Below are positions 8,279 to 50,409 of a DNA stretch of 64,000 nt, piece after piece (within the stretch, counting starts at the first letter, position 1; the number at the start of each line of letters is the position of its first letter). The stretch is from the NCBI GenBank assembly GCA_025331435.1, contig JAIWNI010000035.1, forward strand, positions 207,697 to 271,696. The letters are read 5' to 3'. The DNA comes from Choanephora cucurbitarum. Taxonomy: Eukaryota > Mucoromycota > Mucoromycetes > Mucorales > Choanephoraceae. A model generated the notes under the pieces. It was not told where the DNA came from and searched no databases. It saw only the letters and a program-made list of their open reading frames with translations. The position numbers and the translations under genes are program-made.

Positions 8279-11200
8279 ATGAAACGTTCTAGTACTGGAG
8301 ATAATTCACCAATAATTAAAAAGAAAGTTCGTGATAATACCACAGAAGAAGAACCCATCACAACAGATATTTTTTCGCCCATTCCTTCTGCAAACATGAC
8401 ACATACAACCCACACTGCAAGTGACTCTAATACATCACCTGCAGGCAGTATGAGTGTGATTCGTTATGTTTACGGTCTTGTACATAATTTAGAACAAGGA
8501 AACATCGACCATTGTTTATCTCATTCCATAGACTCCTCTCAGTTTGACGAAACTCTAAGTGCGGCAGACACTGACTTGCTTAATGCACTTGATTCAAATC
8601 TCAAGAAGATTGCTCAACGTCAGTTGCAATTGGAGACAGAAAATCTTAGGAGTCGCATTATGATACAGCAGCAACATCAGCTTCTGACAGCCTCTAATCA
8701 CGAAGAAAAAGACCATAGTGAGTCAAGCAAGGGACCAAGTCAAGAGGACAAAGAAAGGACAACGAACACTACACCTGAAGATAGTTTAACATCCGTTCAC
8801 GATTCTTCTTTGCTCGAAAAATTAGAAAATTCATACCGCGAAATGCCCAAAATTCCCCAACAGAAAGAAAAAGGTAGCAAAAACAAAAAGAAAAAGTTTA
8901 TTTAGCATCGTCTCATTTTCTCTTTCGTATCAGCAAAAACCTCCACAAATAACGATTTAGCTGCCGGCCTCGCTTCTCTATCATCTCCTCCACCATTCAC
9001 TATATCATCTATCGCTACTGCTTATCCTGTCTATTTTGGTTCAACATCTTCCTCTGCTATATCATTCCCTGCCGCTGCTGTTCAGACAAGCTCTGACAAC
9101 ATTGTATGCCCTGACTGTGTTATTCAAGCTGTTACTGTCGCCTGTGGTGTCTTTAACGGTGATTTAAATGGACGTATTACTTGTAAACATGAACGTTGTG
9201 TTGCTGGCACAAACGTCGAATCGGATGCCCCTATTAATACCTTAAAAAATGCCATTAATGCAATGGCCGACCAACTTCAAGGAATTACTGATGAAGTCAA
9301 TTCAGTGGCTCATGAAACCGCTGTCAATGGCAAACTTGGTATTCAATGTAGCATCAAAGAAAAGAAAGGCTTATGGAAAGATTTTGTTGTCAACCTTAAT
9401 CTAATGACCAGAAATCATCTTGAGCAAGTGCGTGATATTGCTGATGTCTCACAAGCAATTGCTAGAGGTGATTTAAGTAAGGCAATGACCGCTCCTGTAC
9501 GAGGTGAAACCTTATTGCTCAAGAACACATTCAACACAATGGGTAAGAATTTTTTTTGTCGAATTATCAAACCAGTGTAGCTCATCACTTTCTTTTCCTT
9601 GGTAGTAAACCAATTGAACTTGTTTGCTTCTGAAGTCTCAAGAGTGGCTCACGAAGTTGGTACTGAAGGTAAACTAGGTGCACAAGCCAAGGTACAAGGT
9701 GCAGACGGTATTTGGAAAGAGTTGACAGACAATGTCAACACAATGGCTGCTAATCTTACGAATCAAGTGCGAGATATTGCTCAAGTTTCGAAGTCGGTAG
9801 CTCGAGGTAATTTAACCAAAAAGGTCACTGTGGAGGTTAGGGGTGAAATGCTGGATTTAAAAAACACCATTAACACCATGGTGGATCAAGTAAGTGTACC
9901 TCAATCTAATGTCACTTCCCTAGACTAACCATTTTTGGAAACCAGTTATCCATATTTGCAACCGAAGTGACACGTGTGTCTCTAGAAGTTGGAACTGAAG
10001 GAAAATTGGGTGGTCAAGCAATTGTTAAGGATGTTGCTGGTACCTGGAAAGATTTAACAGATAATGTCAACACAATGGCAACCCGGCTTACCGATCAGAT
10101 GCGTGACATTGCAGTAGTCGCTAAAGCTGTTGCGCAGGGTGACTTGTCTAAAAAGGTTAAGGCCAATGCACAAGGTGAAGTATTGGAACTCAAGAATACT
10201 ATGAATAAGATGGTAAGTTCATGATGCGCTTCTTCTTTTTTTATTTTAAAGAGAGAAAAATGGCTTATCTCCTAATTCCTTTCAGGTGGATCAATTGTTA
10301 CTTTTCTCTGCTGAAGTGCGAAGAGTATCATTGGAAGTGGGTGTTGAGGGTAAATTAGGTGGTCAGGCTGTTGTCAAAGATGTTGGCGGTACATGGAAAA
10401 ACCTAACGGATAACGTGAACCAAATGGCCGCCAATCTAACCAATCAAGTCCGATCTATTGCTGAAGTAACTAAAGCTGTAGCAAACGGTGACTTATCAAA
10501 GAAGATTGAAGTAGAAACCAGAGGAGAAATTCTCGACCTCAAGAACACAGTAAACGACATGGTGGATCAACTAAGAGTCTTTGCATCCGAAGTAACGCGT
10601 GTGTCTCGTGAAGTAGGAACCGAAGGCAAGCTAGGAGGAGAAGCTATTGTGCCAAGTGTCAGCGGAACTTGGAAGGATTTAACGGACAATGTCAATACCA
10701 TGGCTGCCAACCTTACGACCCAAGTACGTTCTATCGCCGAGGTAACCAAAGCTGTTGCCAAGGGAGACTTGTCAAAAAAAATCTATGTTGAGACACAAGG
10801 TGAAATACTTGACCTTAAGAATACAGTCAATAACATGGTGGATCAGCTGAATGTATTTGCTGCGGAAGTCACAAGAGTAGCTAAAGAAGTAGGCACAGAG
10901 GGCAAGCTAGGAGGTCAAGCGCTAGTGCCAAATGTCGATGGTACTTGGATGGATCTTACAGTGAACGTAAACCATATGGCCACCAACTTGACTAATCAAG
11001 TACGTTCAATTGCTGAGGTGACAAAAGCCGTAGCTCTTGGTGATTTGTCCAAAAAGATTGAAGTCGAGTCTGGTGGTGAAATCCTGGATTTGAAAAACAT
11101 CGTGAATAACATGGTGGATCAGTTGAGAGTGTTCGCTTCAGAGGTCACGAGAGTGTCGAAGGAAGTCGGTACAGAGGGCAAGTTAGGTGGGCAAGCTGTT

Positions 11201-14200
11201 GTACAAGGCGTGGCCGGTACATGGAATGAGTTGACGGTAAACGTTAATCACATGGCCACTAATCTGACCAACCAAGTACGTTCTATAGCTGAGGTGACAA
11301 AAGCCGTAGCTCTTGGTGATTTGTCCAAAAAGATTGAAGTCGAGTCTGGTGGTGAAATCCTGGATTTGAAAAACATCGTGAATAACATGGTGGATCAGTT
11401 GAGAGTGTTCGCTTCAGAGGTCACGAGAGTGTCAAAGGAAGTCGGTACAGAGGGTAAGCTTGGCGGTCAAGCTATGGTTCCCAACGTTGCTGGTACTTGG
11501 TTCGAGCTTACTGACAATGTAAACATCATGGCTGCCAACTTGACCAACCAAGTGCGATCGATTGCTGAAGTGACAAAGGCTGTAGCTTTAGGTGACTTAT
11601 CCAAAAAGATCGAAGTTGAGTCCGGCGGTGAAATCCTAGACTTGAAGAACATTGTCAACAACATGGTGGATCAGTTGCGTATTTTTGCTTCCGAAGTAAC
11701 AAGAGTGTCAAAGGAAGTGGGTACTGATGGTAAACTAGGCGGTCAGGCCCGCGTTCCTAATGTTGCGGGTACATGGTATGAGCTTACAAGTAACGTTAAT
11801 ATCATGGCTGCCAACCTTACGACCCAAGTACGATCCATCGCTGAAGTAACGAAGGCTGTAGCCCTTGGCGACCTTTCGAAGAAAATTGAAGTTGAGTCTG
11901 GTGGTGAAATCTTAGATCTACAAAACATTGTCAATAACATGGTGGACCAGCTCAATGTCTTTGCATCTGAAGTATCTCGTGTTGCCAGAGAAGTAGGTAC
12001 AGAAGGCAAGTTAGGTGGGCAAGCTGTTGTGCAGGGCGTAGCCGGTACATGGAACGAGTTAACAGATAACGTCAACACCATGGCTGCTAATCTTACGACC
12101 CAGGTACGATCTATCGCACAAGTGACAAAGGCTGTCGCCAATGGTGACTTGTCAAAGAAGATTGAGGTACAGACGAACGGTGAGATTCTTGACTTGAAGG
12201 ACACGGTGAATGACATGGTGGACCAACTGCGAGTGTTTGCTGCCGAAGTCACAAGAGTAGCTAAAGAAGTAGGAACAGAAGGCAAATTGGGCGGTCAAGC
12301 CAAGGTCGAAGGTGTTGCCGGTACCTGGATGGATCTTACAGACAATGTCAATACAATGGCTGCTAATTTGACGACGCAAGTAAGATCTATTGCGCAAGTA
12401 ACAAAGGCTGTGGCTTTGGGCGACTTGTCAAAGAAGATCGAGGTCGAGTCTGGTGGTGAGATCTTAGAGCTTAAGGATATCGTAAACAACATGGTGGATC
12501 AACTGAGAGTGTTCGCTTCAGAGGTCACGAGAGTGTCAAAGGAAGTCGGTACAGAGGGTAAGCTTGGCGGTCAAGCTATGGTTCCCAACGTTGCTGGTAC
12601 TTGGTTCGAGCTTACTGACAATGTAAACATCATGGCTGCCAACTTGACCAACCAAGTGCGATCGATTGCTGAAGTAACCAAGGCCGTTGCTCTTGGCGAT
12701 TTGTCAAAGAAGATCGAAGTGGAATCTGGTGGTGAAATCTTGGACCTCAAAGTAACCGTCAATTCTATGGTAGACCAGCTGCGTATATTTGCCTCCGAAG
12801 TAACTCGTGTAGCTAGAGAAGTAGGTACAGAAGGTAAGCTTGGTGGACAAGCTACCGTTGAAGGCGTTGCTGGTACATGGAACGAGTTGACCGACAATGT
12901 CAACACCATGGCTGCCAACTTAACTACACAAGTGCGTTCAATTGCACAAGTGACAAAGGCTGTCGCCAATGGTGACTTGTCAAAGAAGATTGAGGTACAG
13001 ACGAACGGTGAGATTCTTGACTTGAAGGACACGGTGAATGACATGGTGGACCAACTGCGAGTGTTTGCTGCCGAAGTCACAAGAGTAGCTAAAGAAGTAG
13101 GAACAGAAGGCAAATTGGGCGGTCAAGCCAAGGTCGAAGGTGTTGCCGGTACCTGGATGGATCTTACAGACAATGTCAATACAATGGCTGCTAATTTGAC
13201 GACGCAAGTAAGATCTATTGCGCAAGTAACAAAGGCTGTGGCTTTGGGCGACTTGTCAAAGAAGATCGAGGTCGAGTCTGGTGGTGAGATCTTAGAGCTT
13301 AAGGATATCGTAAACAACATGGTGGATCAGTTGCGTATCTTTGCCTCTGAAGTCACGAGAGTGTCGAAGGAAGTCGGTACAGAGGGCAAACTAGGTGGTC
13401 AAGCTGTCGTACAAGGCGTGGCCGGTACATGGATGGATTTGACAGATAACGTAAACCAGATGGCTGCCAATTTGACTAATCAAGTGCGTTCAATTGCTGA
13501 AGTGACAAAGGCTGTTGCTAGAGGTGACTTGTCAAAGAAGATCGAGGTCGAGTCTGGTGGTGAAATCCTGGATTTGAAAAATATCGTGAATAACATGGTG
13601 GACCAGTTGAACGTATTTGCTGCAGAAGTCACAAGAGTAGCCAAAGAAGTAGGCACGGAAGGCAAGCTTGGTGGACAGGCTCGTGTTCCAAATGTCGATG
13701 GTACCTGGAAGGATTTGACGGATAATGTCAACACTATGGCCACCAACTTGACCAACCAAGTACGATCCATCGCTGAAGTAACGAAGGCTGTAGCCCTTGG
13801 CGACCTTTCGAAGAAAATTGAAGTTGAATCCGGAGGTGAAATCCTGGATTTGAAGAACATTGTCAATAACATGGTGGACCAGCTCAATGTCTTTGCATCT
13901 GAAGTATCTCGTGTTGCCAGAGAAGTAGGTACAGAAGGCAAGTTAGGTGGGCAAGCTGTTGTGCAGGGCGTAGCCGGTACATGGAACGAGTTGACCGACA
14001 ATGTCAACACCATGGCTGCCAACTTAACTACACAAGTGCGTTCAATTGCACAAGTGACAAAGGCTGTCGCCAATGGCGATCTGTCCAAGAAAATTGAAGT
14101 GCAGACGAATGGTGAAATTTTAGAGCTGAAAGATACAGTTAATGATATGGTGGACCAATTAAACGTGTTTGCTTCAGAAGTTACTCGTGTTGCAAAAGAA

Positions 14201-17200
14201 GTAGGTACTGAGGGCAAGCTAGGTGGCCAAGCCAAGGTTGAAGGTGTTGCTGGTACCTGGATGGACCTTACAGACAATGTCAATACAATGGCTGCCAATC
14301 TTACAACTCAGGTGCGTTCAATTGCACAAGTAACAAAAGCGGTAGCTCTTGGTGATTTGTCAAAGAAGATCGAAGTCGAGTCTGGTGGTGAGATCTTAGA
14401 GCTTAAGGATATTGTCAATGGCATGGTGGATCAGTTGCGTATCTTTGCCTCTGAAGTCACGAGAGTGTCGAAGGAAGTCGGTACAGAGGGCAAACTAGGT
14501 GGTCAAGCTGTCGTACAAGGCGTGGCCGGTACATGGATGGATTTGACAGATAACGTAAACCAGATGGCTGCCAATTTGACTAATCAAGTGCGTTCAATTG
14601 CTGAAGTGACAAAAGCCGTTGCCAATGGCGACCTGTCCAAGAAAATTGAAGTGGAATCCGGCGGTGAAATTTTAGAACTCAAGAATATCGTGAATAACAT
14701 GGTGGACCAGTTGAATGTGTTTGCCTCTGAAGTCACAAGAGTGTCGAAGGAAGTCGGTACAGAGGGCAAACTAGGTGGTCAAGCTGTTGTACAAGGCGTT
14801 GCTGGTACTTGGAACGAATTGACTGACAATGTAAACATCATGGCAGCCAACTTGACTAATCAAGTGCGTTCTATTGCCGAGGTGACAAAAGCTGTTGCTA
14901 ACGGTGATCTATCAAAAAAGATTCACGTTGAAACACGAGGTGAAATTCTTGATTTGAAGATTACTGTAAACGACATGGTTGACCAGCTTCGAGAGTTCTC
15001 ATCTGAGGTTACTCGAGTCGCTCGTGAAGTCGGTACTGATGGTGCATTAGGTGGTCAAGCTAACGTACAAGGAGTTGCTGGAACTTGGAAAGACTTGACT
15101 GATAATGTCAACACAATGGCTACAAACTTAACAACACAGGTCAGATCCATTGCTGTGGTCACAAAAGCTGTTGCAAAAGGTGATTTATCAAAAAAGATTG
15201 AAGTCGAGACACGTGGTGAAATCCGTGAGCTAAAGTTAGTACAATTTGATATCCAACTACATTACTGTTTATTGACCATAAATCTATAGAGAGACGGTGA
15301 ATGACATGGTGGACCAATTACGAGTCTTTGCAGCAGAAGTCACGAGAGTAGCCAGAGAAGTTGGTACTGAGGGTATACTTGGTGGACAAGCTACTATTGT
15401 GGGTGTCGATGGAACTTGGAAAGATTTGACTGATAATGTCAACCTGATGGCAAGTAACTTGACAGACCAACTTCGTGCAATTGCCGCTGTCTGTAAGGCT
15501 GTTGCTCAAGGAGACCTTAGCAAGAAGATCGAAGTAGAAGTACACGGCGAAATTGCTGAATTGAAAAACACAATCAATACAATGGTAGACCAGCTTAGTT
15601 CATTCGCTTCCGAAGTAACAAGAGTCGCTAAAGAAGTAGGAACGGAGGGTAAGCTTGGCGTTCAGGCTCAAGTAGAAGATATTGAGGGTTTGTGGCGTGA
15701 CATTACAAGCAATGTCAACACTATGGCTTCAAACTTGACTACTCAAGTACGTGCTTTTGCTCAAATTTCAGCTGCTGCTACCGAAAACGATTTCTCTCGT
15801 CTTATTACTGTTGAAGCATCTGGTGAAATGGATTCATTGAAAACCAAGATTAATCAAATGGTAGGCTCCCTTCGTGACGCAATTCAGAAGAACAGACTTG
15901 CCAGAGAGGCTGCTGAATTGGCCAACCGATCTAAGAGTGAGTTCTTAGCCAACATGAGTCACGAAATCCGAACACCTATGAATGGTATCATTGGTATGAC
16001 TACCCTTACTCTTGAAACTGAATTGACTAGACAACAGAGAGAAAACTTGATGATTGTTTCAAGTTTGGCTAACAGCTTGCTCACTATCATTGACGATATC
16101 TTGGATATTTCAAAGATTGAAGCTGGTCGTATGACAATCGAGTCCATTCCATTCTCCCTTCGTTCTGCTGTCTTTAGTGTTCTCAAGACACTTGCTGTTA
16201 AAGCAAACCAAAAGAAGCTTGATCTTATTTACCATGTTGACCAATCTATTCCTGACCAGTTGATTGGTGATCCTCTACGTCTTCGCCAAGTCATTACTAA
16301 TCTCATAGGTAATGCTGTCAAGTTCACTACTCAAGGTGAAGTTGTTCTTCGTACCCGATCTGTCAGAATGCAGGATGGAACCGTTGTATTAGAATTCTGT
16401 GTTAGCGATACTGGTATTGGTATTCAAGAAGACAAACTGAATGTAATCTTTGACACCTTCTGTCAAGCTGATGGTAGTACTACGTAAGTAACTCCTTTTT
16501 TTCATTCCAAACAAAATCTAATTTCTTTGAATTCTACATATAGCCGTGAATACGGTGGTACTGGTCTTGGTTTATCGATTTCTCGACACCTAGTTCAACT
16601 GATGGGTGGTGATTTATGGGTTGAGTCCAAATACGGTAGAGGATCTGAATTCTATTTCACTGTCAGCCTGCTTCGTTACAATCTTGACGACAAGGAAATC
16701 AAAGACAAGATGCACAGATTCCGTAACAGACGAGTTTTATTCTTGGATAGCATGAACGATCAGACAGGCGCTTTGAACAAGATCAGTATGTTGGGTCTGA
16801 AGCCTTATCGTGTTGGAAGCATTGAAGAAGCTGCAGCTGTTTCAATTGCCAATTCAAGTAAAGTGAAGCATGCTCCTTTCTTTGACACTGTCATCATTGA
16901 CAAGATGGCGTTTGCTGAAAAGATCAGAGAGATTGTTCCACTACGCTATACTCCTATTGTCTTAATAGCTCCTGAAGCACATCTTCTCAACATGAAGCTA
17001 TGCATTGACCTTGGCATCACAGGCTATGCAAACTCCCCCTCAAACCTTGCCGATATGTTTGCAGTGCTCCTACCAGCCTTAGAAAGTCACGCAGCGCTGC
17101 CAAGTGATGCATCAAAGACTGTTCCATTAGAAATCCTTTTAGCTGAAGACAACGACGTCAACCAAAAGCTTGCTGTTCGTATACTAGAGAAATTCGGACA

Positions 17201-17607
17201 TCATGTTAAGGTCGTCGCTAATGGTAAATTAGCTGTTGAAGCTTTTGAATCTCAAGAGTTTGATTTGATTTTGATGGATGTGCAAATGCCTGTCATGGGT
17301 GGTTTTGAAGCTACGCAAAAGATTAGAGAAATTGAACATAGCATGAACAACAAGTCTCATATACCAATCATTGCTTTGACTGCCCATGCTATGATTGGTG
17401 ATAGAGAAAAATGCTTACAAGCTGGCATGGTAAGCAATCAATTTTACTTCTCACTCATATTTGTTTGCTAATTCTTTTTTCTGTTAGGATGAATATGTCA
17501 CCAAACCACTTAGATTCCCCGAGCTCATTGCAGCTATAAAGAAATTTGCTCCCCAGTCAGCGCATATGATGGAAGGAAAGCCCAAGCCATCCTTATTAAA
17601 GAAATAG
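8279..17607 (+). CDS. Group III hybrid histidine kinase with giant HAMP array (Nik1/Os-1 type)
   Basis: Eight exons: 8279-8873, 8934-9542, 9606-9889, 9946-10212, 10286-15234, 15290-16483, 16544-17429 and 17488-17607. Phases agree and the total is 8904 nt (2967 aa). The order is a low-complexity N-terminus (about 1-250), a HAMP array (about 255-2420), HisKA with the [11 protein letters not shown]-box (phospho-acceptor His about 2459), HATPase with [27 protein letters not shown] and [10 protein letters not shown], then a receiver domain with [15 protein letters not shown] (phospho-acceptor Asp about 2878) and the conserved Lys in YVTKPL. No transmembrane segment is apparent, as in cytosolic Nik1/Os-1 osmosensors, which signal through a phosphotransfer protein to the HOG pathway and are targets of dicarboximide/phenylpyrrole fungicides. 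Known relatives carry about 5-7 HAMP units; this one has about 23. All catalytic motifs are intact. Confidence 0.95.
9242..15873 (+). repeat. Tandem array of about 23 HAMP units (276 bp / 92 aa each)
   Basis: Each unit reads roughly [66 protein letters not shown] counted 23 copies of the central Trp motif (GTW, or LW/IW at the edges): three before the large exon, 18 inside it and two after. The first and last units are the most divergent and those in the middle nearly identical. Copies repeat at 276 bp and at multiples of it. Stretches at 12116-12501 and 12944-13329 look identical, consistent with recent unequal crossing-over or gene conversion. Confidence 0.92.
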
Positions 17608-38465: not shown

Positions 38466-40212
38466 ATCAGTTCCAGAACTGTCTCAACAAGGTTCCTATA
38501 TACGCATTAAATAATGATACAGAATAAAACTATATCTCAAAAAAAAAACGACCAAATGAAGTTCGAAGAGCTGTCCAGCTGTGGGCGGGCGCACTGTACT
38601 CTTGCTCTCGTCGAATTTTCAACAGCTTTAGTAACTCTTCCATACAGGTCGTGCTACATCTCACCCAACTGCCTTCCATGAAGAACGAATCATATCTGCT
38701 TTAAGCTCAAATCCCGTCATGCTCTTTATAACTCCCTCTTGATGCACTCCTTTATCCTCTGCTAATTCGCACCCGCCCTTCCTCATACAACTCTACTTGT
38801 TGTCACCTCTCCCAATCTCCTCTCTGGTACAAATGACAATTACGATTTGCTACTACCACCTGACGCGTCCCTCGTCAACTCTTCTTGAAAGATTGCAACG
38901 AGTATCCATCATATAAACAATTCTATACGAACTTGCCTACCTACAACATTCTAAGATTCCGCAGTTTCCACCCAACTATCTTGGGCAAAAAATCCTTGCA
39001 ACTTTCTCTTCTCCTCCATCTATCAATGCTTTAACACCTAAACCACCTATCTAGCCATTCTTTTTTTACCTTTATCCTAGAAAAATTTTTAGCCTCTCAT
39101 TCATGTCGATCTATACCAGGCAATCTTTTCTCATCACATTGTGTGCTTAATTGAGGATTTCTGTAAAAACTAAACCTACGTTTAATTGTATGTTTCTATA
39201 AGTTCTCTTCTCAATCCCACAAAAATGATCATCTAAAAGTTAAAACAAGCCTGATTGAGGGACTTTAGATTTGTTGCAAAATAGAAAAGAATAAAAAGAG
39301 ATTACTTCAATTAAACTTGAGTAGAGACAGAATTGATTGAGCGAGATAGACATCATGTTTCATTGTTATAGTTACTCAAAATAATCATACTGATGAAACA
39401 CAGTTGACAATATATGAATGGAAACATAAAACCTTAGCATCTAAGGAAGAGCAAACTAAAAAAGGAATTGTAAGATTTTCGGAGTGATAATCAATACAAT
39501 GAAGAACAAGTATGCGATGTTGGATTTGAACAAACTTGTGTTCGTATTAACAAGATAAGACTTGTAGAAGACAACGGTTTAGAAGCTTTCGCGAAGAAAA
39601 CAAGACAGAACTTAAAGAGCAAACTTTTTTTGATGTATTTTATAAGAGTATCAACTAAAATAAGTTGAAGTACATAGATTCGTGGTGCACTGATAAAAAG
39701 GAATTTGGGATGCGAACACTCTTAGCATTCTCATTTCGCTTATCTGGACGCGCTGTTTTAGTCCTTGTTACTCTATTTTGTTTTCTGGCCATTTACACTA
39801 ATACTCATATTGGTAAACAACTTTCTCACAAAATTATGGTAGCTGGAACAAGATATTGAGATGGCCAAAGCAAGAATAAAAGTCATCAGAGGTCGACGTA
39901 TGACGCAAGAAGTTAAGGACATTATAAGACATTTGGCGCTCTTTTCTATTTTGGTTGTCTTGAGCCCTTATAACTGCTGATACCATGGCTAGTATTAGAA
40001 AATGAAGCAGATTCATTGCCATAGAGAACAAACTGTTCTATCTTGCGTTCACTCAAATTATAAATACTTTGCGTGTCTTTGTGAAAAAGTATTCAACAGC
40101 CATGATACTTCTCTGCTGCGACACTTTTATGTATAAAATTATCCAAAGGGTTTATCTCTGAGTCATCATCTATCCTTACTTTTTTTTTTGGACAGTAAAT
40201 ATCCTAAAGTAG
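38466..40212. other. Degenerate DNA between transposase remnant and MULE
   Basis: No intact gene. At about 38540-39070 the plus strand is unusually C/T-rich and slightly richer in GC than its neighbours, with many short broken frames; it may be a decayed transposon. At about 39485-39660 there is a stretch of roughly 58 codons without a stop and no recognisable family. The left target duplication of the MULE begins at 40213. Confidence 0.4.
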
Positions 40213-40223
40213 TGTTAAAGTTT
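40213..40223. repeat. MULE target-site duplication, left copy
   Basis: The 11-bp sequence TGTTAAAGTTT lies immediately outside the left inverted repeat and is repeated exactly at 48649-48659. Target duplications of 8-12 bp are typical of Mutator-like elements. Confidence 0.88.
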
Positions 40224-40378
40224 GAATAAAGCTATTTACCGCCACCGAAAATTCTTATTTACAACCACTGACCCGATCCCTGAGTTTAAAATAATCTGGT
40301 TTACAGCCACTTTATTTACAACCACCTTATTTACAACCACCACCTTATTTACAACCACCCTTATTCACAACCACCCTT
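40224..40378 (+). repeat. MULE left terminal inverted repeat
   Basis: It begins GAATAAAGCTATTTACCGCC and runs through a block containing ACTGACCCGATCCCTGAG, then a short array of about 15-bp TTATTTACAACCACC units. Its reverse complement is found at 48488-48648, with a small length difference near the tip and different numbers of the 15-bp unit. Confidence 0.9.
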
Positions 40379-40420
40379 AGACATACCATCAAACCATAGT
40401 TTCTAGCCTTTCTTGAAATA

Positions 40421-40489
40421 ATGATAAGTGAAAATTTACAAAAAGTTCCTGAAGGCCTTCCCGAACTTCCTCGAAGCATCGATAAAGAA
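40421..40489 (+). CDS. MULE transposase, first 23 codons (5' part of split gene)
   Basis: The ATG at 40421 opens 23 codons (MISENLQKVPEGLPELPRS then IDKE), stopping at the point where the Helitron begins. The reading phase is 0 at the break, and the remaining frame resumes in phase 0 at 45486, beginning SLNTLIKEYATRNNFAV, which is a typical FAR1-like start for a MULE transposase. The host target is ...GAA|TCT..., i.e. between A and T. A premature stop now follows within seven codons of the junction, so the gene is broken unless the Helitron is removed from DNA or RNA. Confidence 0.8.
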
Positions 40490-40529
40490 TCACTTATAAT
40501 ATACTGAAAAATCGAATAAAAAGTTACTA

Positions 40530-40537
40530 TCACGTGA
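40530..40537. promoter_or_regulatory. Palindromic TCACGTGA box in Helitron promoter
   Basis: The E-box-like palindrome TCACGTGA followed by CCT lies 109 bp upstream of the Rep/helicase ATG. The same TCACGTGACCT lies 90 bp upstream of the relic frame at 54987. Conservation between the two Helitron copies suggests a binding site for a bHLH-type host factor. This is inference. Confidence 0.5.
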
Positions 40538-40638
40538 CCTGACTGCTCTTTTCTATTTTACTATCTCTTACAAATAAATTTAAACCCACCTTTTATTAAT
40601 TATTACCCATTTATTTCTTCCCTTTCTCTAAACATAAT

Positions 40639-43600
40639 ATGAGTAATCAAGTAAACGCTATTTCCAAGACCTGTTCAAGCTGTGGAACTACCTTCTATCA
40701 CTCTAGATTCGCAACCTGTGACTCATGCCGAGTAAGATTCTTGCCTATTTCCTATTGCAATTAAATAAGATATTCTAATTTATGGTCTTTTTCCCTTTTA
40801 TTTATTTCAGGAACGCGCAAGAATTAGAGCTGCAAGCAGACGTCAAAACGCCCAGACTCCCAGTCGTAGACGATCTGTTCAACTTCCAGCAGGCTTTATT
40901 TCTGAGCTTAGCCGCCTTCAGCCTTTTGATCTTGGACTAATGGACAAGGTATGTGCCGACTGTGGTGCTAAGCACTGGGAAGCTGAGCTACCCACTCAAT
41001 GCACTTCTCGAAACAAATTTTGGATGAGCTGTTGTAAGGCTGGCGCAGTGAAACTGGAACCTCTTCAGTCACCTCCCACTTTTTTGAAGACTTTGTTCGA
41101 AGAAGCTAGCACTCGGGGCCGTCATTTCAGGGAAAATGTGAGAAGATTCAATGCGGCCTTTGCTTTTACTTCTTTGAGATGCGAAATCAGCAATGCCAAT
41201 TTGACCAACATGCCTTTTCAAATCCTTGGTCAAATGTACCACATGCAAGGCCCTCTTTTGACAGACAACAACGACAATGCTCGATATGCTCAACTGTATG
41301 TTTTCGATCCTCAATATGCAGCATCTATTAGAGTAGCAAACAACAATGATTTGGATAATGAGATTATCAGGGAATTGTCTTTGATGATCCATGAAAAAAA
41401 TCCTCATGTCAGATTGTATAAGACTGCACATGAGCTTCTCTTGAATGCTGAGATTAGTGAAAGTGAAACTCCTTTTATTCGAATTTGTCCTTCAATGAGA
41501 ATTGAGTTAGTAGCTGGATCCGATAGACGCACTGAGAATCTTCCCACTTCTAATGAAGTTGCGGGAATCATTCCAAATGAGCACGATGCTGAAGGGTTTA
41601 GAGATATTCGCATCTACCTTCGAGATAGTGAAGGCGTTTATTCTCATACAAACATCTCTCAAAACCATGCATTATATATGCCTTTACATTACACTCTTTT
41701 ATTTCCTCATGGTGATTTGGGTTGGCACTGGGGCTTAAGATTGAATGATGGATCAACTCGGTTAACTCAAAGAGTATACTATCGTTATAGACTCCATCAA
41801 AGGGCAGATGAGTATCCACTTCTTTTTTTGAGTAAAAGATTGTTTCAGCAATACTTGGTGGATGTTTGGGCTATTTGTGACCAAAACAAGCTCGACTGGA
41901 TCAAAAACCATCAATCCAATATTAGAGCCGATCTTTACAACGGTCTTCAAGATGCTCTAATCAATGATGATGTTGATCCTGCCTCTTTGGGAAGACGTTT
42001 TATTCTGCCCAGTAGCTATACAGGTGGTCCCCGGTTTATGGCCAAGCTGTATCAAGATTCAATGGCAATTGTTAGGTATTTCGGCAAGCCTTCGTTGTTT
42101 ATCACTTTTACTGCCAATCCTAAATGGATAGAAATTCAAAGAGAGCTACTCCCCGGACAAAACGCTTCAGATCGACCTGATTTAGTCGCAAGAGTCTTTG
42201 ACTTAAAAGTGAAAGCCTTGCTAAAAGATCTCAAGGTTAAGCAAATATTCGGATCTTACAAAGGCTTAGTTCGAACTATTGAGTATCAAAAACGAGGACT
42301 CCCTCATCTACATCTACTTTTGTTTTTGGATCACTCACAGAACATAGACACTGCAGAAAAGATTGATCAAATTATCTCAGCTGAATTGCCATGCAAAGAA
42401 TCCGACCCTGAGCTTTTTGAAATTATCGCAAAAAATATGGTACATGGACCTTGCGGCAATTCGAATCCAAAGTCTCCCTGTATGGCTATGGATAGCAGCG
42501 GTCAACTGAAATGTACTAAGCGATTTCCCAAAGCCTTTTCTGAAGAAACCATTGTGAATGAAAATGGCTATCCAACATATAAGCGATCAGCGACTACCCA
42601 ATCTTCATACACTATACCTAATCCTTTGAGATATAGCAGTGGTCGTTTAAATATTGATAATAGCTGGATTGTACCCTATAATCCTTACCTTTCAAAAAAA
42701 TACAAGGCTCACATAAACGTGGAATGTTGTCAAGGTGTTGCAGCGATTAAATACATCAACAAATATGTATACAAGGGTTCCGATCGCACCACCCTAAAAC
42801 TAAGTGATACGAGAGATGAAATTGAAAAACATCTTCAAGGAAGATACATCGGCCCTACAGAAGCATTCAGTCGTATCTTTGAATACAAAGTCCATGAAGA
42901 AGATCCCACTGTTACTACTCTGGCCCTACATCTTCCCAATGAGCAACCTGTGTACTTTCCCGAGGATGCGTCTGCGCCTCAAATACAAGAAATCTTAGCT
43001 AATAGTAGCTCCATGCTAATTGCTTATTTCAAGTATTATGAAAGTAATCCAACTAGCGAAAAGCATTTGTACCAGGACTTTCCTAAGCATTATGTTTGGA
43101 AGCAAGGATTAAAAAGTTGGGTACCACGCAAGAAAGGATTTGCAATTGGCAGAATACCTTTTTGTAGTCCTACATGTGGAGAAAGATATTTCTTGAGACT
43201 TCTTTTGGTAAACGTTGCAGGATCTAAATCTTTTGATGATCTCAAAACGATCAATGGATTTCAATGCACAACTTCCAAACAAGCCTGTCTCCAGCTGCAT
43301 TTGATTGAGGATGATCAAGAATGGACGAAATGCTTTGAGGAAGCTCATCTCTTCTCATCCGGTCATAGTCTGCGTGATTTATTTGTCACTGCATTGGTTT
43401 TTGGACAGCTAATTGATCCAATGTCTTTATGGCTTCAATTCCGAGAATCAATTTGCGACGATCTATCTCACAAGTTGGAACAAATAGTTCCAGACACTTT
43501 TCTGCTGTACATGTCGACACGTCCAGAAGCCTTTTATGATGAGCGTCCTTCAATGGATTATGGATTGCATTTGATTGAAGAAAAGTTGAAAGACTTTAGT

Positions 43601-45220
43601 AAATCTCTTGAGGGCTTTAATCTGCCTTCACCCAAATACGATTGGGTAGGCAATTTGAGTCGTCTCAATTCTGATCGAGCTCTTACTGGCAACCCTCTCA
43701 TTGATGAGCAATTATCGTACAATTCTCTAGACGGAGAATTAGCATATAACTCCAAATATGCACTCTTCAATCCAGACCAAAAACAAGCTTTCGATACTAT
43801 AGTACACAAGTTGCAGGCTTCTGATGTATCAAATGACACTGACACAATTGATTCTGAGACTGGTATCTGCTTTTTTTTGCATGGACCAGCTGGCACCGGA
43901 AAGATTTTTGTTTACAATACACTTTGTAACTATCTAAGAAGCAAGAAAAAAATCGTTTTGTGTGTCGCTTCATCTGGTATTGCAGCACTACTTTTGACTG
44001 GAGGCAGGACCTCTCATTTTAGGTTCAGTATCCCCTTGAAGCTTAACGAATCTTCAACCTGCAATATACCAAAGAATAGCAAACTGGCTGACCTACTTTG
44101 CCAAACATCTCTGATTATTTGGGATGAAGTTCCCATGCAAAACAGGTCATGCTTTGAAGTTGTTGATCGGACTCTTAGAGATACTTGCAGTAACGACCTG
44201 CTTTTTGGTGGCATCCCTACTGTTCTGGGCGGTGATTTTGCTCAAATTCCCCCAGTAGTCAAAAATGGTACTAGATCCTCTATTGTAGGAGCCTCAATTA
44301 AGCAGTCTTACATTTGGCGTCGAACACAGGTATTGCATCTCCATACAAACATGCGTGTAATAGGTACTTCATCCAATGATGTCCATTTTAAAAAATGGCT
44401 TTGTTTGATGACTTACAACACCGCAATGCAAAATGCAAAAATTCCTATCCCGCAGTATATATCTCAAACCTTTTCTTTGGATGAGCTCATTGCTAAGGTT
44501 TATTCTCAAGAAAGTCTCTTACAAGCACTTGACAATCCAAGCGTTTTATACAAATCTGCTATTCTAACCTCCAAAAACGTCATTGTCGATTCTATAAACG
44601 AGAAGGTGCTAAATTTGATGCCAGGAGAGCCTGTTACTCTGATCTCTGCTGATAAGGCTGATTATTCGGATGAAGAAAACAGTAACAACGAGGTCTATAG
44701 AGTTTCGACTGAGTACTTACAAACGCTTAACCCAGGTGGCTTTCCACCTGCCAAATTAACCTTAAAGGTAGGCTGCATTGTAATGTTACTCAGAAACTTA
44801 GATCCTCAAAGAGGTCTATGCAATGGTACTCGACTGATTGTAAAGAGAATTGGCCAATATGTCCTTGAAACTGTGGTAATGAATGATCGAAATGATGGTC
44901 ACGAACAAATCGAGTTTATTCCTAGAATTACACTTACTACTTTGGAAGACGACTACCCATTTATTCTGTCAAGAAAGCAGTTTCCAATCAAACTAAGCTT
45001 TGCTATGACTATTAACAAGTCCCAAGGTCAATCCTTAACAAATGTAGGAATCGATCTTCGTTCTCCTTTATTTACACACGGCCAGTTATATGTTGCTTTC
45101 TCTCGCTCAACTAATCTTCAAGGAATCCATGTTTTATTAGCAGAAGCAAATTCTGATCAACAACATTCATCTTCCAAAAATACTACCGACAACATTATCC
45201 TTCCTGAACTTCTTTTGTAA
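40639..45220 (+). CDS. Helitron Rep (HUH endonuclease)/Pif1-type helicase
   Basis: Two exons, 40639-40731 and 40811-45220, give 1500 aa. Domain order: an N-terminal Cys-rich zinc-finger-like part (CSSCGTTF...TCDSCRERAR), a second Cys cluster (VCADCGAKHW, CC), the Helitron-like N domain, the Rep nuclease with the HUH motif GLPHLHLLLFL (His530, His532) and the two-Tyr motif KYINKYVYKG (Tyr679, Tyr683), then a Pif1/RecD-type helicase with Walker A GPAGTGKI, IIWDEVPM, GGDFAQIPPV and the end motifs INKSQGQSL and YVAFSR. The protein nicks and unwinds DNA for rolling-circle transposition. The Walker A Thr/Ser is replaced by Ile (codon 43904-43906, ATT), which should harm ATP binding. Otherwise the frame is intact. 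Confidence 0.95.
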
Positions 45221-45317
45221 AATAAACTATTATTATTACTTTTTAAACAAAAACTTATAGCTAAAATGCTATTTATTCTACATACAAGTTTGGGTGATGG
45301 GGGAGGGGGGTGTGTAG

Positions 45318-45410
45318 GTGGGTGAGGGTGGTGGGTGAGGGTGGTGGGTGAGGGTGGTGGGTGAGGGTGGTGGGTGTGGGTGGTGGGTGTGGGTGGTGGG
45401 TGTGGGTATG
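45318..45410. repeat. G-rich 13-bp minisatellite in Helitron 3' region
   Basis: About seven copies of GTGGGTGAGGGTG, later GTGGGTGTGGGTG, lie between the helicase stop and the Helitron 3' end. The run of GGG triplets could form G-quadruplex structures on the plus strand. Confidence 0.88.
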
Positions 45411-45485
45411 GGGGTTGTGGGTTGCCAGGATCGAGACCGCAGGCGACGACGGCCGTAAAGCGAGCGAAGCGAGTAGGTCGGCTAG

Positions 45486-48428
45486 TCTCTTAATACTCTT
45501 ATTAAAGAGTATGCAACTAGAAACAATTTTGCAGTTTCTATTACAAGATCCGACGCAAAAAGACTAGTTTATCAATGCGTGAAAAGTGGCAAACATAGAG
45601 AAGACTACAAGCGCATTGAAGACGTTAATAAGCAACGAGCTAAAATGAGTGTAAAGACAAACTGTCCTTTTACCATTAGATTCTCTAAAGTCAAAAGCAA
45701 AGGCACTCTTAATCTTATTGAGCCTCACGATGAACGTGAACTGTGCCATAACCATTCTCTTGACATACTTGAAATGTTGTCTGTACCAAAAGGACGTAAG
45801 AATAACCTTGAGCCAAGCGAGATGAAGAAAGTCAGTTTCGGTCTTGAGTTAGACTTGGCACCTCGCAAAATTCAAGAATCCATTAGTAGAGATGGCAGCT
45901 ATAACAAGCTAACTGCAATTGACATCAAAAACATGAAGCAAGACTATAAGAGACAAAGTCACCAATCCTCGTTTAAAGCGTCTAGTAATGAAGCAACAGA
46001 TTTGATCAATCGAATGCAAAGTGACGGGTTTACTGTATTCTACGACTTTAATGAAGCAGGTTTCCTGAAGTCGATTCTCTTCGCCAATAGTAAAATGATT
46101 GAAAGAACAAAGCAATTCCCTGAAGTAATGGTAATCGATGCCACATACAAAACAAACAATCTTGGAATGCCTTTGATTGGTGTGTATGGTGTAAGCAACA
46201 TTGGAAGAAATGCTTTAAAAAGCTTTCCTGTAGCGTTTGCCTGGGTCTCAAACGAGCAAGAGTCCACTTACAACTGGGTTCTTTTAAAGCTGAATCAATT
46301 ACTAGGAGGCATTTCGTCAGAAACTGTGTTTATTACTGATAAGTGCACAGCTTTAAGAAATTCATTAAGCAGACACTTTTCTGAAAACAAAAAGCTTCTT
46401 TGTACATGGCATATGTTAAACAATCTTGATGACCATTGTAATAAGAAGACATTCAAGAACAGCAAGACCATAGATGATTTCAAGTCGTACGTCAAAGCTT
46501 TGATTGATTTGCCAAGCTTCACCGAATTTTCAAAGTACAGTAATCTAATCAATGAAATTCTTTACGACGACAATTGTTTCGTCTCAAAAGATGAGAGAAT
46601 CAAGTTCAAGGAATATTATGAAACCGAGTGGAAGCTTTGCCTACATCAGTGGGCAGCCAACTACACATCAAAAGTAAGGAACATGGGCTGTACTACTTCT
46701 CAAAGAGCAGAAAGTGGCCATGGAGCAATGAAGAATGGCATGAACTCAGCACAACAGCTTTGCATCGCCTTTGAAAAAATCAGCGATTACTTGAGACGCT
46801 TTGATCGCAATTTCAATGAGCAAGAGCTGAAAGAAAAGACTAGCTGCGACATTCTCATAAGTGGTGATGATCAATTGAACCATCTCCGTGGAAAAGTTGG
46901 TCATTTCGCTCTTTATAAGCTTCGAGAAGAACTTTACAAAGAACGGCCAGTAATCCCTGCACAATACTCGGAATGTGTTTGTAAAAATCGAGTTGTGTAT
47001 GGGCTGCTATGCTGTCATCAAATGGACAGATTAAAGCAAAGCAGAATCGAGTTGATTGATGTACCTCAACGTTGGTGGATATCTAAAGCTGATGAATATG
47101 CTCATAAACCATTGAAGAGCTTCACAAAGCCATGGGTTAAATATTTGCTTGCACTTGATGAAGCATTCCGTGTAGCAGAAGGAGATGTAGTTGAAACGTC
47201 TCGTTTAACATATGTACTTGACGATCTTCTGCATACAGATAACAATTCCTTTGTTGATGGTAGCTCTAGAACCAAGTTGGAATCTGGAGGCATCCCTCCT
47301 TTGCAATTACCAGAAGCAAGTGAAGTAAGAAAGCCGGGAAGACCACCAAAATCTCAAAGACTATCTTCGCTTCCCAAAGACTTTGCCAATGCTAGTTTTA
47401 GAAAGCAGTACAGTAAAATTGATCTGAAGAAAAAGCAAGAAGACGGAGAAGAAAAGAAAGAAGAAGACGAAGAAGAAAAGAAAGAAGAAAAGAAAGAAGA
47501 AAAGAAAGAAGAAAAGAAAGAAGAAAAGAAAGAAGAAAAGAAAGAAGAAAAAAAAGAAGAAAAGAAAAAAGAAGATGAAGAAGAAGAAGAAGAAAAAAAG
47601 AAAGAAGATAGAAAGGAAAAGTCCAAAAAGAGAAAGCCTGTTTGTCATGGAGATTTCGTATATGATTTGTACATTCCTAAAAAGAGGGCAACCACTGAAA
47701 GAAAAAGGTACCAACACAGTAGGTTAGATTTTCTTGTTCATGAGAGCATAGATAAACTTGATGTTGTAGAAACCCATGATCCCAAAGGCGATGGATTTTG
47801 TGGGTTTAGATCTGCAGCTCATGCTATTTATGGCGACGAGGATAAGTTCATTCAGGTTAAAGAAGCAATGCTGAATGTCTTGGGAAAGAAGTTCAATGAT
47901 GATATGACATACGCGGACTTCTATAGTAGTTCGTTGGGAATGATAATGAAAGATGTAAAAATGACTATCATTTGTGGCATTGATCAGCAAAACAATAGCT
48001 CGGAATTAAGAGGTGAACCATCCCATACAAAAGCAAAAGTTGCTCAACCAAGATTCTGGTTTGATAGTTTGGATTGTATGCAAATTTTGGCTGATGCTTA
48101 CGGAAGACCAGTTTGCTACTATCCCCCTGTTGTTGATGTACCGGAAGTAGCGATTGATCAACCTGCTTCGTATTTCCCGGTGATCTTGCCAGCAAAGCTT
48201 GATAAGAAACCGCTTCCAATCCACATCCAAAACATCAACGGTTGCCACTGGGGTTCTATCAAGTTCTCCAACTCATGCCAAAGATTTCCGGCTCCTTCTA
48301 GAGTGTATATCGATGCGCATGAATCGCTTCGTGGCAATTTTGATAACTATTGGAATCGTTGGAAGCAATTCCACAAGCAACCGAAATCCTTAGAAGAAAA
48401 AGAAACAGCTGTTATTGTTATCGATTAA
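45486..48428 (+). CDS. MULE transposase fused to OTU protease domain (main part)
   Basis: A single open frame of 980 codons that continues the 23 codons at 40421-40489 (1003 aa together). Numbering the joined frame: FAR1-like DNA-binding region (about 24-110, Cys/His with CPFTI and LCHNHS), MULE catalytic domain with VIDATYKTN (Asp241), FITDKCTAL (Asp308) and SQRAESGHGAMK (Glu432), a SWIM zinc finger (ECVCK...LLCCH), an AT-hook-like RKPGRPPK, a Glu/Lys run, and a C-terminal OTU domain with KGDGFCGFR (Asp792, Cys795) and CHWGSIKF (His944). OTU domains are deubiquitinase-like cysteine proteases. Without the first 23 codons the frame has no ATG until 45645, so the gene is now split. Both catalytic triads look intact. 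The orientation matches the element. Confidence 0.9.
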   Translation, partial: SLNTLIKEYATRNNFAVSITRSDAKRLVYQCVKSGKHREDYKRIEDVNKQRAKMSVKTNCPFTIRFSKVKSKGTLNLIEPHDERELCHNHSLDILEMLSVPKGRKNNLEPSEMKKVSFGLELDLAPRKIQESISRDGSYNKLTAIDIKNMKQDYKRQSHQSSFKASSNEATDLINRMQSDGFTVFYDFNEAGFLKSILFANSKMIERTKQFPEVMVIDATYKTNNLGMPLIGVYGVSNIGRNALKSFPVAFAWVSNEQESTYNWVLLKLNQLLGGISSETVFITDKCTALRNSLSRHFSENKKLLCTWHMLNNLDDHCNKKTFKNSKTIDDFKSYVKALIDLPSFTEFSKYSNLINEILYDDNCFVSKDERIKFKEYYETEWKLCLHQWAANYTSKVRNMGCTTSQRAESGHGAMKNGMNSAQQLCIAFEKISDYLRRFDRNFNEQELKEKTSCDILISGDDQLNHLRGKVGHFALYKLREELYKERPVIPAQYSECVCKNRVVYGLLCCHQMDRLKQSRIELIDVPQRWWISKADEYAHKPLKSFTKPWVKYLLALDEAFRVAEGDVVETSRLTYVLDDLLHTDNNSFVDGSSRTKLESGGIPPLQLPEASEVRKPGRPPKSQRLSSLPKDFANASFRKQYSKIDLKKKQEDGEEKKEEDEEEKKEEKKEEKKEEKKEEKKEEKKEEKKEEKKKEDEEEEEEKKKEDRKEKSKKRKPVCHGDFVYDLYIPKKRATTERKRYQHSRLDFLVHESIDKLDVVETHDPKGDGFCGFRSAAHAIYGDEDKFIQVKEAMLNVLGKKFNDDMTYADFYSSSLGMIMKDVKMTIICGIDQQNNSSELRGEPSHTKAKVAQPRFWFDSLDCMQILADAYGRPVCYYPPVVDVPEVAIDQPASYFPVILPAKLDKKPLPIHIQNINGCHWGSIKFSNSCQRFPAPSRVYIDAHESLRGNFDNYWNRWKQFHKQPKSLEEKETAVIVID
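47438..47620. repeat. GAAGAAAAGAAA tandem repeat coding Glu/Lys run
   Basis: A purine-only array of 12- to 15-bp units encodes a Glu/Lys linker between the AT-hook and the OTU domain of the MULE transposase. It preserves the frame, and repeat number is likely to vary between copies. Confidence 0.9.
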
Positions 48429-48487
48429 ATGGAGTTATATATACACATTTATTGACATAGTGAATTTACATATGATTACCACGAAAA

Positions 48488-48648
48488 ATGGTTGTGAATA
48501 AGGGTGGTTGTCAATAAGGTGGTTGTCAATAAGGTGGTTGTAAATAAGGTGGTTGTAAATAAGGTGGTTGTAAATCAGATTATTTTAAACTCAGGGATCG
48601 GGTCAGTGGTTGTAAATAAGAATTTTCGGTGGCGGTAAATAGCCATTC
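48488..48648 (-). repeat. MULE right terminal inverted repeat
   Basis: Reverse complement of the left end: the array GGTGGTTGTAAATAA (about five units, some with GTCAATAA) leads to CTCAGGGATCGGGTCAGT and GGCGGTAAATAGCCATTC at the tip. The tip reads GAATGGCTATTTACCGCC on the minus strand against GAATAAAGCTATTTACCGCC at left. Confidence 0.9.
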
Positions 48649-48659
48649 TGTTAAAGTTT
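48649..48659. repeat. MULE target-site duplication, right copy
   Basis: TGTTAAAGTTT, an exact copy of 40213-40223, directly outside the right inverted repeat. Confidence 0.88.
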
Positions 48660-50409
48660 TATTGCTCGCTTTTATCGATCGGGCTGAAATGTCTTGCATT
48701 ATAGTTGAATGTGTCCATTGAAGAATCCGGGTCTTTAGCTTTCATTTATTGAAATATTGCCAGAATCGAGATACACAATGATAATCATCGTTTTATGTTT
48801 GAGCCAATTGCTATAGATCAATCTTAGTACTTTCTTTTCTTCTCAATAAGCTTTATTCGCATGTGACCGCTACTCTGTTTGTGTATGAGCCAACAGCGTC
48901 CATCAGCTGGGCTGTACTTGATGTCTATTGTTGTTCTGTAAATTCGCTCCTCCTAAAAGTGATCGATTACAACTGTTTTATTTCTGCTACTTCGCCAAAA
49001 CCAAGACAAAGTTCAGAACATAATGATACCTCTAAAGCAAAGAGCTTCGTTATTGTCTCCTTTGTTTTCTTTTCTTCTAAACTAATTTATGCTTGTCAGA
49101 GTCGTTTCTTGGAAACTTTAAAGCCTCCATTAATAGAAAAAAACCAACAAACAAACTAATGGTTTGTACTGCAATTATGTCTTTGTTTGGTTGTTTTGAT
49201 TTAGGTATCACTTTTCCTTTCCCTTTTGATGAGAAAATTCCCTTTTTGACGACACTGACGATGTATTACATTACATAAAACTAATCAACTTTGTTTGTGT
49301 CAATATCATAAGCGCCAGACATAGTATAGTTCCTTAAATGAGATAACACGTAATGAAAAGACTCTGTTATGTTTGCTTACGAAACTCTTGAGAAAAACAA
49401 TTATGCCATGTATGTAATCCTACTATAGAGTCGCTTTCGAAAGAGGGCTCAATTCAAAGAAATCTATTTGTGCTTAAATCTGTTAAGATAGGGAATTATA
49501 ATTGTCTAAATTCAACAGAACTGCAGTGTTGTTCTACTGGCTTCGCTGAAAAATTTGGTGCGCTTTTGTATTTCATTGACAGCTATTGTTCTTTTGATTA
49601 TATAAGGTTGCTTTGGTTTATTACCAATCATTACTGCTGCTAACATCACTAAAGGTATCGTCTCAATTTTCTATTCGTTCTCTCTTGCTTCTGTAAGCAA
49701 AGTAGCAAAAAAAAAAAGATGACTTAATTGTTTTCTAATGGTTAGCAAAAGATGAAACATCCTTTTCATATAGACGATATAAAGCACCTTTCTTGATATT
49801 ATGTTGGATGACCCGTCCCCTAGATAAATTGACAACATATGATGTATATCGAAAATTCATATGACTAATACTGGCTGTTTTTTTAAACTTTATATTATCT
49901 TTCATTACTTTATTCTCCTACTTTCTTTTTCAGATAACCTCTATCCAAAGTATTTCTAATGATTCTGATCAGTCATAAAAGAATTCAAGTATTATGCTAC
50001 GAAACAAAGAAAAAGAGACGCAAGGCCTTTGTATTTCGTTTCTTATGGTGTGACAAAAGAAAACGTAATTCTATTCAAGCTTATTCAATCTTATGCTAGC
50101 CTTGCCAGGTATACGTCAAACTCGATGTGCAGTTAGATAAATGCATGTGTCTATTACTATCGGTCCAAGTATTACAAATGACCGGGTTACACAACAAAAG
50201 TGTCCCTGAAAGAAAACAATGCACCCTTAAAAATAATCTTTTGTCAGCATGCAGCACATAAGAATCCGTCATAAGCAAGATTTAGATACAGTTGAAGTAA
50301 CAATAAGATTTGTATTTAAACTCTTCCAGAAACAGTGTGTCAAGAGCCAGTTTAATTCCAATTTCTCATTTTCTTTCTTTACTTTCTTATTAATATCTCA
50401 ACGAACATT
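48660..50409. other. Gene-free region between MULE and chitinase
   Basis: AT-rich with short frames only (48863-49159, 49093-49278, 50096-50278), none with family features. The last few hundred bases form the chitinase promoter, with a TATA-like TATTTAAA at 50313-50320, about 90 bp upstream of the ATG. Confidence 0.5.

Follow-up and report, generated by a model that had tools for sequence, protein, structure and literature searches.

What decides where a eukaryotic Helitron lands, beyond the A|T dinucleotide between whose bases it inserts, is to our knowledge an open question. It is raised here by a 64,000-nucleotide stretch of the Choanephora cucurbitarum genome (the window; contig JAIWNI010000035.1, positions 207,697 to 271,696, part of what we call C279 in an assembly of 33.4 Mb and 357 contigs), in which a Helitron lies inside the transposase gene of a Mutator-like element (MULE). 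Canonical Helitrons (Helitron1) start with 5'-TC, end with CTRR-3' and insert between A and T without target duplication. Comparison of the locus with its relatives in the assembly makes it likely that the Helitron copied itself into one member of a MULE family that was active recently, entering between A and T behind codon 23 at a site chosen for the A|T together with a TAC located 6-12 bases downstream.

The insertion and its empty sites

The features that define the insertion, in window coordinates, are:
40421..40489, + strand: MULE transposase gene, first 23 codons from the ATG; junction uninterrupted in 6/6 empty copies
40490..45485, + strand: Helitron of 4996 bp, flanked by A 40489 and T 45486
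45486..48428, + strand: MULE transposase gene, remainder, 980 codons and stop, in the same phase as the first part
45494..45496, + strand: target TAC, at offset 8 (junction T as 0); also found in each of the six empty MULE copies

A preliminary description of this DNA had placed in a MULE gene, opening at 40421 for 23 codons and resuming in phase at 45486, a 4996-bp insert that starts with TC, ends with CTAG and lies between A and T. All of this holds, and the frame is open to the stop at 48428. The insert begins with TCACTTATAATATACTG and ends with GGTCGGCTAG, giving the borders A|TC...CTAG|T. Eight MULE 5' ends, counting that of the window, were recovered at identities of at least 97%, and the same number of 3' halves at 98% or above. 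At six other loci (C344, C337, C328, C303, C246 and C308) the two halves abut, and the uninterrupted site CGATAAAGAATCTCTTAATAC is found in every one of them; these loci are natural pre-insertion sites. In addition, a free Helitron (C201:126066-131061) shows 0 differences over 4996 positions, has the same ends and lies between A and T in different flanks, outside any MULE. Empty MULE copies and a Helitron with identical ends at another site are the checks that the preliminary description had itself named for the nesting. The nested structure and its exact borders are thus real and not a product of chance: the Helitron insertion broke the transposase gene of the MULE without target duplication or loss.

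The nearest empty copies, C246 and C303, are 99.9% and 99.8% identical to the window MULE (over 1500 bp), indicating that the MULE family moved recently. No stop was found in the compared end pieces of C303, C246 and C337, but C246 has a short frame disturbance; damage is seen in the copies on C328, C308 and C344. The 3' flank is common to C337 and C246, whereas their 5' flanks do not match, so that these two loci may not be wholly independent. Nesting as such is ordinary: in the part of PMC3903597 used here, nested transposable elements were reported in 36% of the coding MULE candidates of maize and 41% of those of rice, and in print such nesting is common, although the word Helitron does not occur in the main text of that paper.

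TAC downstream of Helitron insertion sites

A pattern search allowing up to 2 mismatches recovered 43 3' ends of this Helitron family; one, on C155, is the window locus (see below), leaving 42 distinct flanks. Offsets are counted from the T directly after CTAG, taken as 0. This T follows all 42 ends. A TAC starts at offset 7-9 in 30 of the 42 and at offset 6-12 in 35, compared with 487 (4.6%) and 10.3%, respectively, of the 10514 A|T sites counted on both strands of the window. The motif was first noticed before 19 of the 42 ends were fetched, and these 19 served as a fresh test: 11/19 carry TAC at 7-9 (binomial 1e-10) and 12/19 at 6-12 (3e-8), with all seven ends that lack TAC falling among them. 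When all 64 trinucleotides were scanned in all three-wide offset windows, the best other than TAC reached 17/42, and in six seven-wide control windows spanning offsets 13-54, TAC occurred in 2-7 of the 42 flanks. Each of the six empty MULE copies already carries the TAC of the window insertion, so that it preceded this insertion and was not brought by the Helitron. We are highly confident that a TAC motif lies 3' of the insertion sites in this Helitron family.

Neither TAC nor any other downstream target motif for Helitrons was found in the sections of open-licence PMC papers that we draw on, and within that literature an extended, clade-linked Helitron target is what is new here. A related case is FoHeli of Fusarium oxysporum (Helitron2-like), which, in the part of PMC5148889 used here, is likewise fungal, has a target preference longer than 2 bases and inserts into itself; its motif, TNAT, lies on the 5' side and its ends are unlike those described here. 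The Pleurotus ostreatus elements HELPO1/2 share with the window Helitron a CT[A/T]G end, AT-rich flanks and the lack of target duplication; they differ by a subterminal hairpin, and the sections of PMC4289320 used here do not mention a downstream trinucleotide motif.

Left ends, transposases and the reading of the target

The TAC signal appears to follow the transposase clade and the left end of the element. In a tree of the 21 elements for which a Rep domain was available, built by a quick method, four elements whose insertion sites lack TAC (C70a, C121, C145 and C182) group as a single clade, with 98-100% identity among themselves and ~48-58% to the others; C346, which likewise lacks TAC, is assigned to this sister clade because it is 82% identical to C145 across 647 bp. 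Fifteen of the other 17 tips have TAC, the exceptions being the long-branched C35 and C138. Over the 42 ends, TAC is found in 0/5 of the sister clade and 35/37 of the others (33/35 after removal of two head-to-tail cases described below). Over the final 50 bases of their 3' ends, the sister clade and the window group are closely alike. The left ends differ: A|TCTAAATAATTAAAATCG, without TAC, in 3/3 sister copies (C145, C182 and C70a), as opposed to A|TCACTTATAATATACTG, A|TCTATATATGTACTG or A|TCTATATATATACYG in the window group. In the latter, TAC is present in the left ends of the window/C201 element, C157, C243a, C324a, C160b and C66b, each assigned to its 3' end by position.

Two of the 42 insertions, on C243 and C222, sit exactly at the left boundary (A|TC) of another Helitron, so that CTAG is directly followed by the TC of the next element. 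At C243:8348/8349, a C213-type Helitron (99.6% identical) ends where a C157-like one (93% in part) starts, and at C222:1792 the upstream Helitron best matches C243a (91% over 208 bp) and the downstream one C66b (96%). Where the partners differ, as those on C222 also seem to, a rolling-circle concatemer of one element cannot explain the junction, whereas insertion at the A|TC of another Helitron can.

In bacterial IS91 and IS608, the target resembles the left-end cleavage site. These elements share single-strand HUH chemistry and site-specific integration with Helitrons (in the part of PMC5876387 used here), and differ in their ends and in being devoid of a helicase. For the Choanephora family, the following mechanism is proposed. 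TAC would be read on the strand joined to the 3' CTAG of the Helitron. The Rep tyrosine would hold the 5' end downstream of the cut (TC... for the left end, T... for a target), so that the target 5' T would be held where the 5' TC of the left end sits (A|TC...TAC). If one groove accommodates the downstream strand at both stages of the reaction, the 3' flank of a target should look like a left end, and the left ends of other Helitrons should be landing sites, giving head-to-tail pairs. In the sister lineage, with its similar 3' end but different left end and transposase, the motif would have been lost or never present. The target bias of the bat Helitron Helraiser is strongest on this same 3' flank, where it consists of AT-richness only (PMC4778049, section 10). 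We give roughly even chances to the proposal that a single groove of the Rep protein grips both the target and the element's left end, which would yield a lineage-specific target A|T-N(5-11)-TAC on the 3' flank.

Several observations weigh against this account of target choice. C35 and C138 are old copies of the window clade without TAC; most of the 37 ends outside the sister clade have no transposase available or are placed only by exclusion, and the contrast between the clades is one evolutionary event, not five. Among 10 left ends found with a TAC-containing pattern (up to 3 mismatches), TAT replaces TAC in two, C353 and C341. The offset of TAC is 10-12 in the left ends checked and mostly 7-9 in the targets. 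The flanks of the sister clade (five only) did not give alignment scores clearly closer to their own left end. TAC is also present at offset 8-11 in 3/9 ends of other Helitron families, above the 10% background (a tenth piece, L105, in which no family end was reached, was left out), although no TAC stands at that place in the two of these families whose left ends were inspected. Finally, the head-to-tail pairs could also arise from chimeric circles.

Two other explanations of the motif have to be considered. If insertion depended on nothing but A|T and AT-richness, the only target properties in published descriptions of canonical Helitrons (in the sections used here), TAC would be a by-product of base composition or of shared target repeats, and the flanks of the family 3' ends are indeed AT-rich. 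Yet the offset and strand of TAC are fixed across 42 distinct flanks, the excess over background stops at offset 12 and the motif reappeared in the ends fetched later; the background, control-window and fresh-end counts largely refute this explanation, which we consider very improbable. A stronger competitor is that TAC is read by a host factor, or by a region of the transposase that binds targets and has nothing to do with recognising left ends, the likeness to the left end being a coincidence. The unequal offsets in left ends and targets and the single clade contrast speak for such separate recognition, whereas the absence of TAC from both left end and target in the sister clade, whose 3' end is very much alike, and the two insertions exactly at the left ends of other Helitrons, speak for a shared groove. 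Separate recognition is a serious contender to which we assign a little less than even chances.

The two elements and their movement

The remaining features of the two elements are:
40215..40223, unstranded: MULE target-site duplication TTAAAGTTT, 9 bp, left copy
40224..40379, + strand: MULE left terminal inverted repeat region, including 15-bp subterminal repeats
40490..40513, + strand: Helitron left terminal sequence TCACTTATAATATACTGAAAAATC, with TAC at offset 12
40639..40731, intron to ~40810, + strand: possible first exon of RepHel with zinc-ribbon-like cysteines (approximate, by eye)
40940..45220, + strand: RepHel open reading frame from the first ATG, 1426 aa
41777..42322, + strand: Rep (HUH, Y2) domain, Helitron_like_N
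43883..43906, + strand: helicase Walker A, GPAGTGKI (GKT in most relatives)
45436..45485, + strand: conserved Helitron 3' end, finishing GGTCGGCTAG, no significant hairpin
48489..48650 (48648 if the duplication is 11 bp), - strand: MULE right terminal inverted repeat region
48651..48659, unstranded: MULE target-site duplication, 9 bp, right copy

For the possible first exon of RepHel, the evidence includes an open frame of 1483 codons. Pfam domains in the RepHel product are Helitron_like_N (PF14214, E 7e-63), PIF1 (E 7e-67) and Pif1_2B, and it aligns with Helraiser (7lcc_A) over Rep and helicase (E 7.5e-246), with HUH and both Y2 tyrosines kept; for the meaning of these residues we follow, in part, PMC4778049. 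Like Helraiser/Helibat1, a canonical bat element, the window Helitron has a RepHel with HUH, Y2 and a PIF1-type helicase, starts with TC, ends with CTAG and inserts at A|T without duplication; it differs in its TAC target motif, in having no recognisable 3' hairpin and in the replacement of the Walker A threonine by isoleucine. Canonical Helitrons typically, albeit not universally, carry a 16-20-bp hairpin 10-15 bp before the 3' end. In the window element, the sequence sought for such a hairpin folds more weakly than shuffled versions (z +1.59) and contains only a 6-bp palindrome, and inspection of the 43 family 3' ends by eye found no common strong stem. Judged by its ends, target and protein, the inner element classifies as a Helitron; because the usual hairpin is missing, we call it a canonical Helitron of a hairpin-poor variety. 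The 33 Mb contain at least 150 Helitron_like_N matches, with several families that include near-identical copies; the families around C114, C46 and C147 end with CTTG or CTCG, not CTAG.

An intact Walker A motif reads GK[ST]. Among the 14 places where the motif is seen, GKT occurs at 9, GKA at 1, GKP at 1 and GKI at 3 (the window, C201 and C155). The window Helitron and its identical C201 copy thus depart from the intact pattern, which concerns activity and not kinship. Mutation of the neighbouring Walker A lysine abolished Helraiser transposition in cells (in the part of PMC4778049 used here). Since two identical GKI copies exist, a GKI donor was copied; taken together with the lysine result, the altered motif suggests that the window Helitron was probably mobilised in trans by GKT relatives. 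With GKI in the Helitron and the MULE gene cut, it is doubtful that the locus holds two autonomous elements, as had been supposed.

The outer element occupies positions 40224-48650 of the window and is a MULE by its transposase domain (PF10551, MULE/RNase H-like, E 1.4e-20 in Pfam, residues 214-313 of the second piece of the gene), its inverted ends of ~150 bp and its target duplication. The arms 40231-40341 and 48533-48643 are complementary at 97% over 111 nt, and a second pair, 40336-40373 and 48489-48526, at 95% over 38 nt. An exact 11-bp repeat, TGTTAAAGTTT, flanks the element at 40213-40223 and 48649-48659. The preliminary description was right about the inverted ends and about the letters of this repeat, which it took for the target duplication; as a duplication length, 11 bp has been replaced by 9. 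The C303 copy has CATTCTG at its 3' end and is followed by a duplication of no more than 9 bp (AAAACATAT); on C344, 8 of 9 bases match, so that the window duplication is probably the 9-bp TTAAAGTTT and the extra TG a matter of chance. The duplications of the window, C303 and C344 agree with the 8-11 bp expected of a MULE. No duplication was seen at C308, and both ends of the C328 copy are disturbed.

In the C328 copy, the 3' inverted repeat is displaced by ~4 kb and lies beyond a second nested insertion in this family, an element with inverted ends (C328:10100-14351) inside the 3' part of the MULE, which is 100% identical on C346 and C353. The 3' inverted repeat was sought in the C337 and C246 copies and not found; the same foreign sequence, which occurs at these two places only, stands there instead, and a Helitron fragment lies at about equal distance downstream of both copies. 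Perfect matches to the MULE ends outside the eight copies that have the 5' part of the gene are located at C46:91669, C177:1874 and C314:1153; they are without the Helitron and may be deletion derivatives or fragments. Within the MULE protein, a 12-base repeat (window 47430-47642) encodes an EKKE-rich linker. The C-terminus (window 47637-48425) contains GDGFCGFR followed by HW, which we take to be OTU-protease-like motifs, and is common to the relatives P0001 (35% identity) and P0003 (28%). A Pfam search of this region gave no OTU match, and a structure-sequence search gave a weak match to OTUD5 (E 0.068); an OTU-like C-terminus is possible.

Joint movement of the two elements had been envisaged, with the MULE ends carrying the Helitron as cargo and the Helitron leaving to free the MULE gene. 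One further filled MULE, on C155 (a contig of 18 kb), suggested joint transposition, and this was dropped because both its outer flanks are those of the window. Aligned in four pieces that span most of window 38886-49611, C155 and the window are 99.0-99.8% identical (21 mismatches and 25 gap openings). Given the shared flanks, C155 represents the same locus and not a second insertion, whether as an alternative haplotype, as a redundant contig or through local duplication. Freeing of the gene by departure of the Helitron is unlikely, since transposition of a Helitron (Helraiser) proceeds by copying, with the donor site regenerated (in the part of PMC5876387 used here).

A travelling composite, in which the MULE ends brought the Helitron to the locus or have moved it since, would draw on the intact outer ends and target duplication, which would allow other MULE copies to mobilise it in trans, and on a rice MULE family amplified together with a nested miniature inverted-repeat transposable element (in the part of PMC3903597 used here). 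Transposase genes of maize and rice MULEs, although from a different host kingdom, are likewise interrupted by other transposable elements (same part of PMC3903597). However, the Helitron is present at only one of the seven loci holding that part of the MULE, the free C201 copy is not in a MULE, and no filled MULE with a separate 9-bp duplication was found elsewhere in the assembly. Movement as cargo, while conceivable, is thus unseen, the composite being known at one locus, and we regard such a composite as improbable. An assembly artefact could be suspected in a draft of 357 contigs with multi-copy Helitrons; but the same junctions are present on C279 and C155 (which may derive from the same reads), and the Helitron borders obey the A|T rule exactly and agree with the empty site, so that an artefact is extremely improbable.

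Elsewhere in the window, positions 10286-17471 hold a gene with a very long run of near-identical repeats, which encodes a putative hybrid histidine kinase with HAMP-like repeats.

The empty MULE sites prove one pre-insertion target, and about 40 insertions show a strand-specific TAC that tracks the clade and the left end. Whether one site of the Rep domain serves both the left end and the target is a question that Helraiser-type assays can address. If it does, head-to-tail Helitron pairs would be explicable without rolling-circle read-through.

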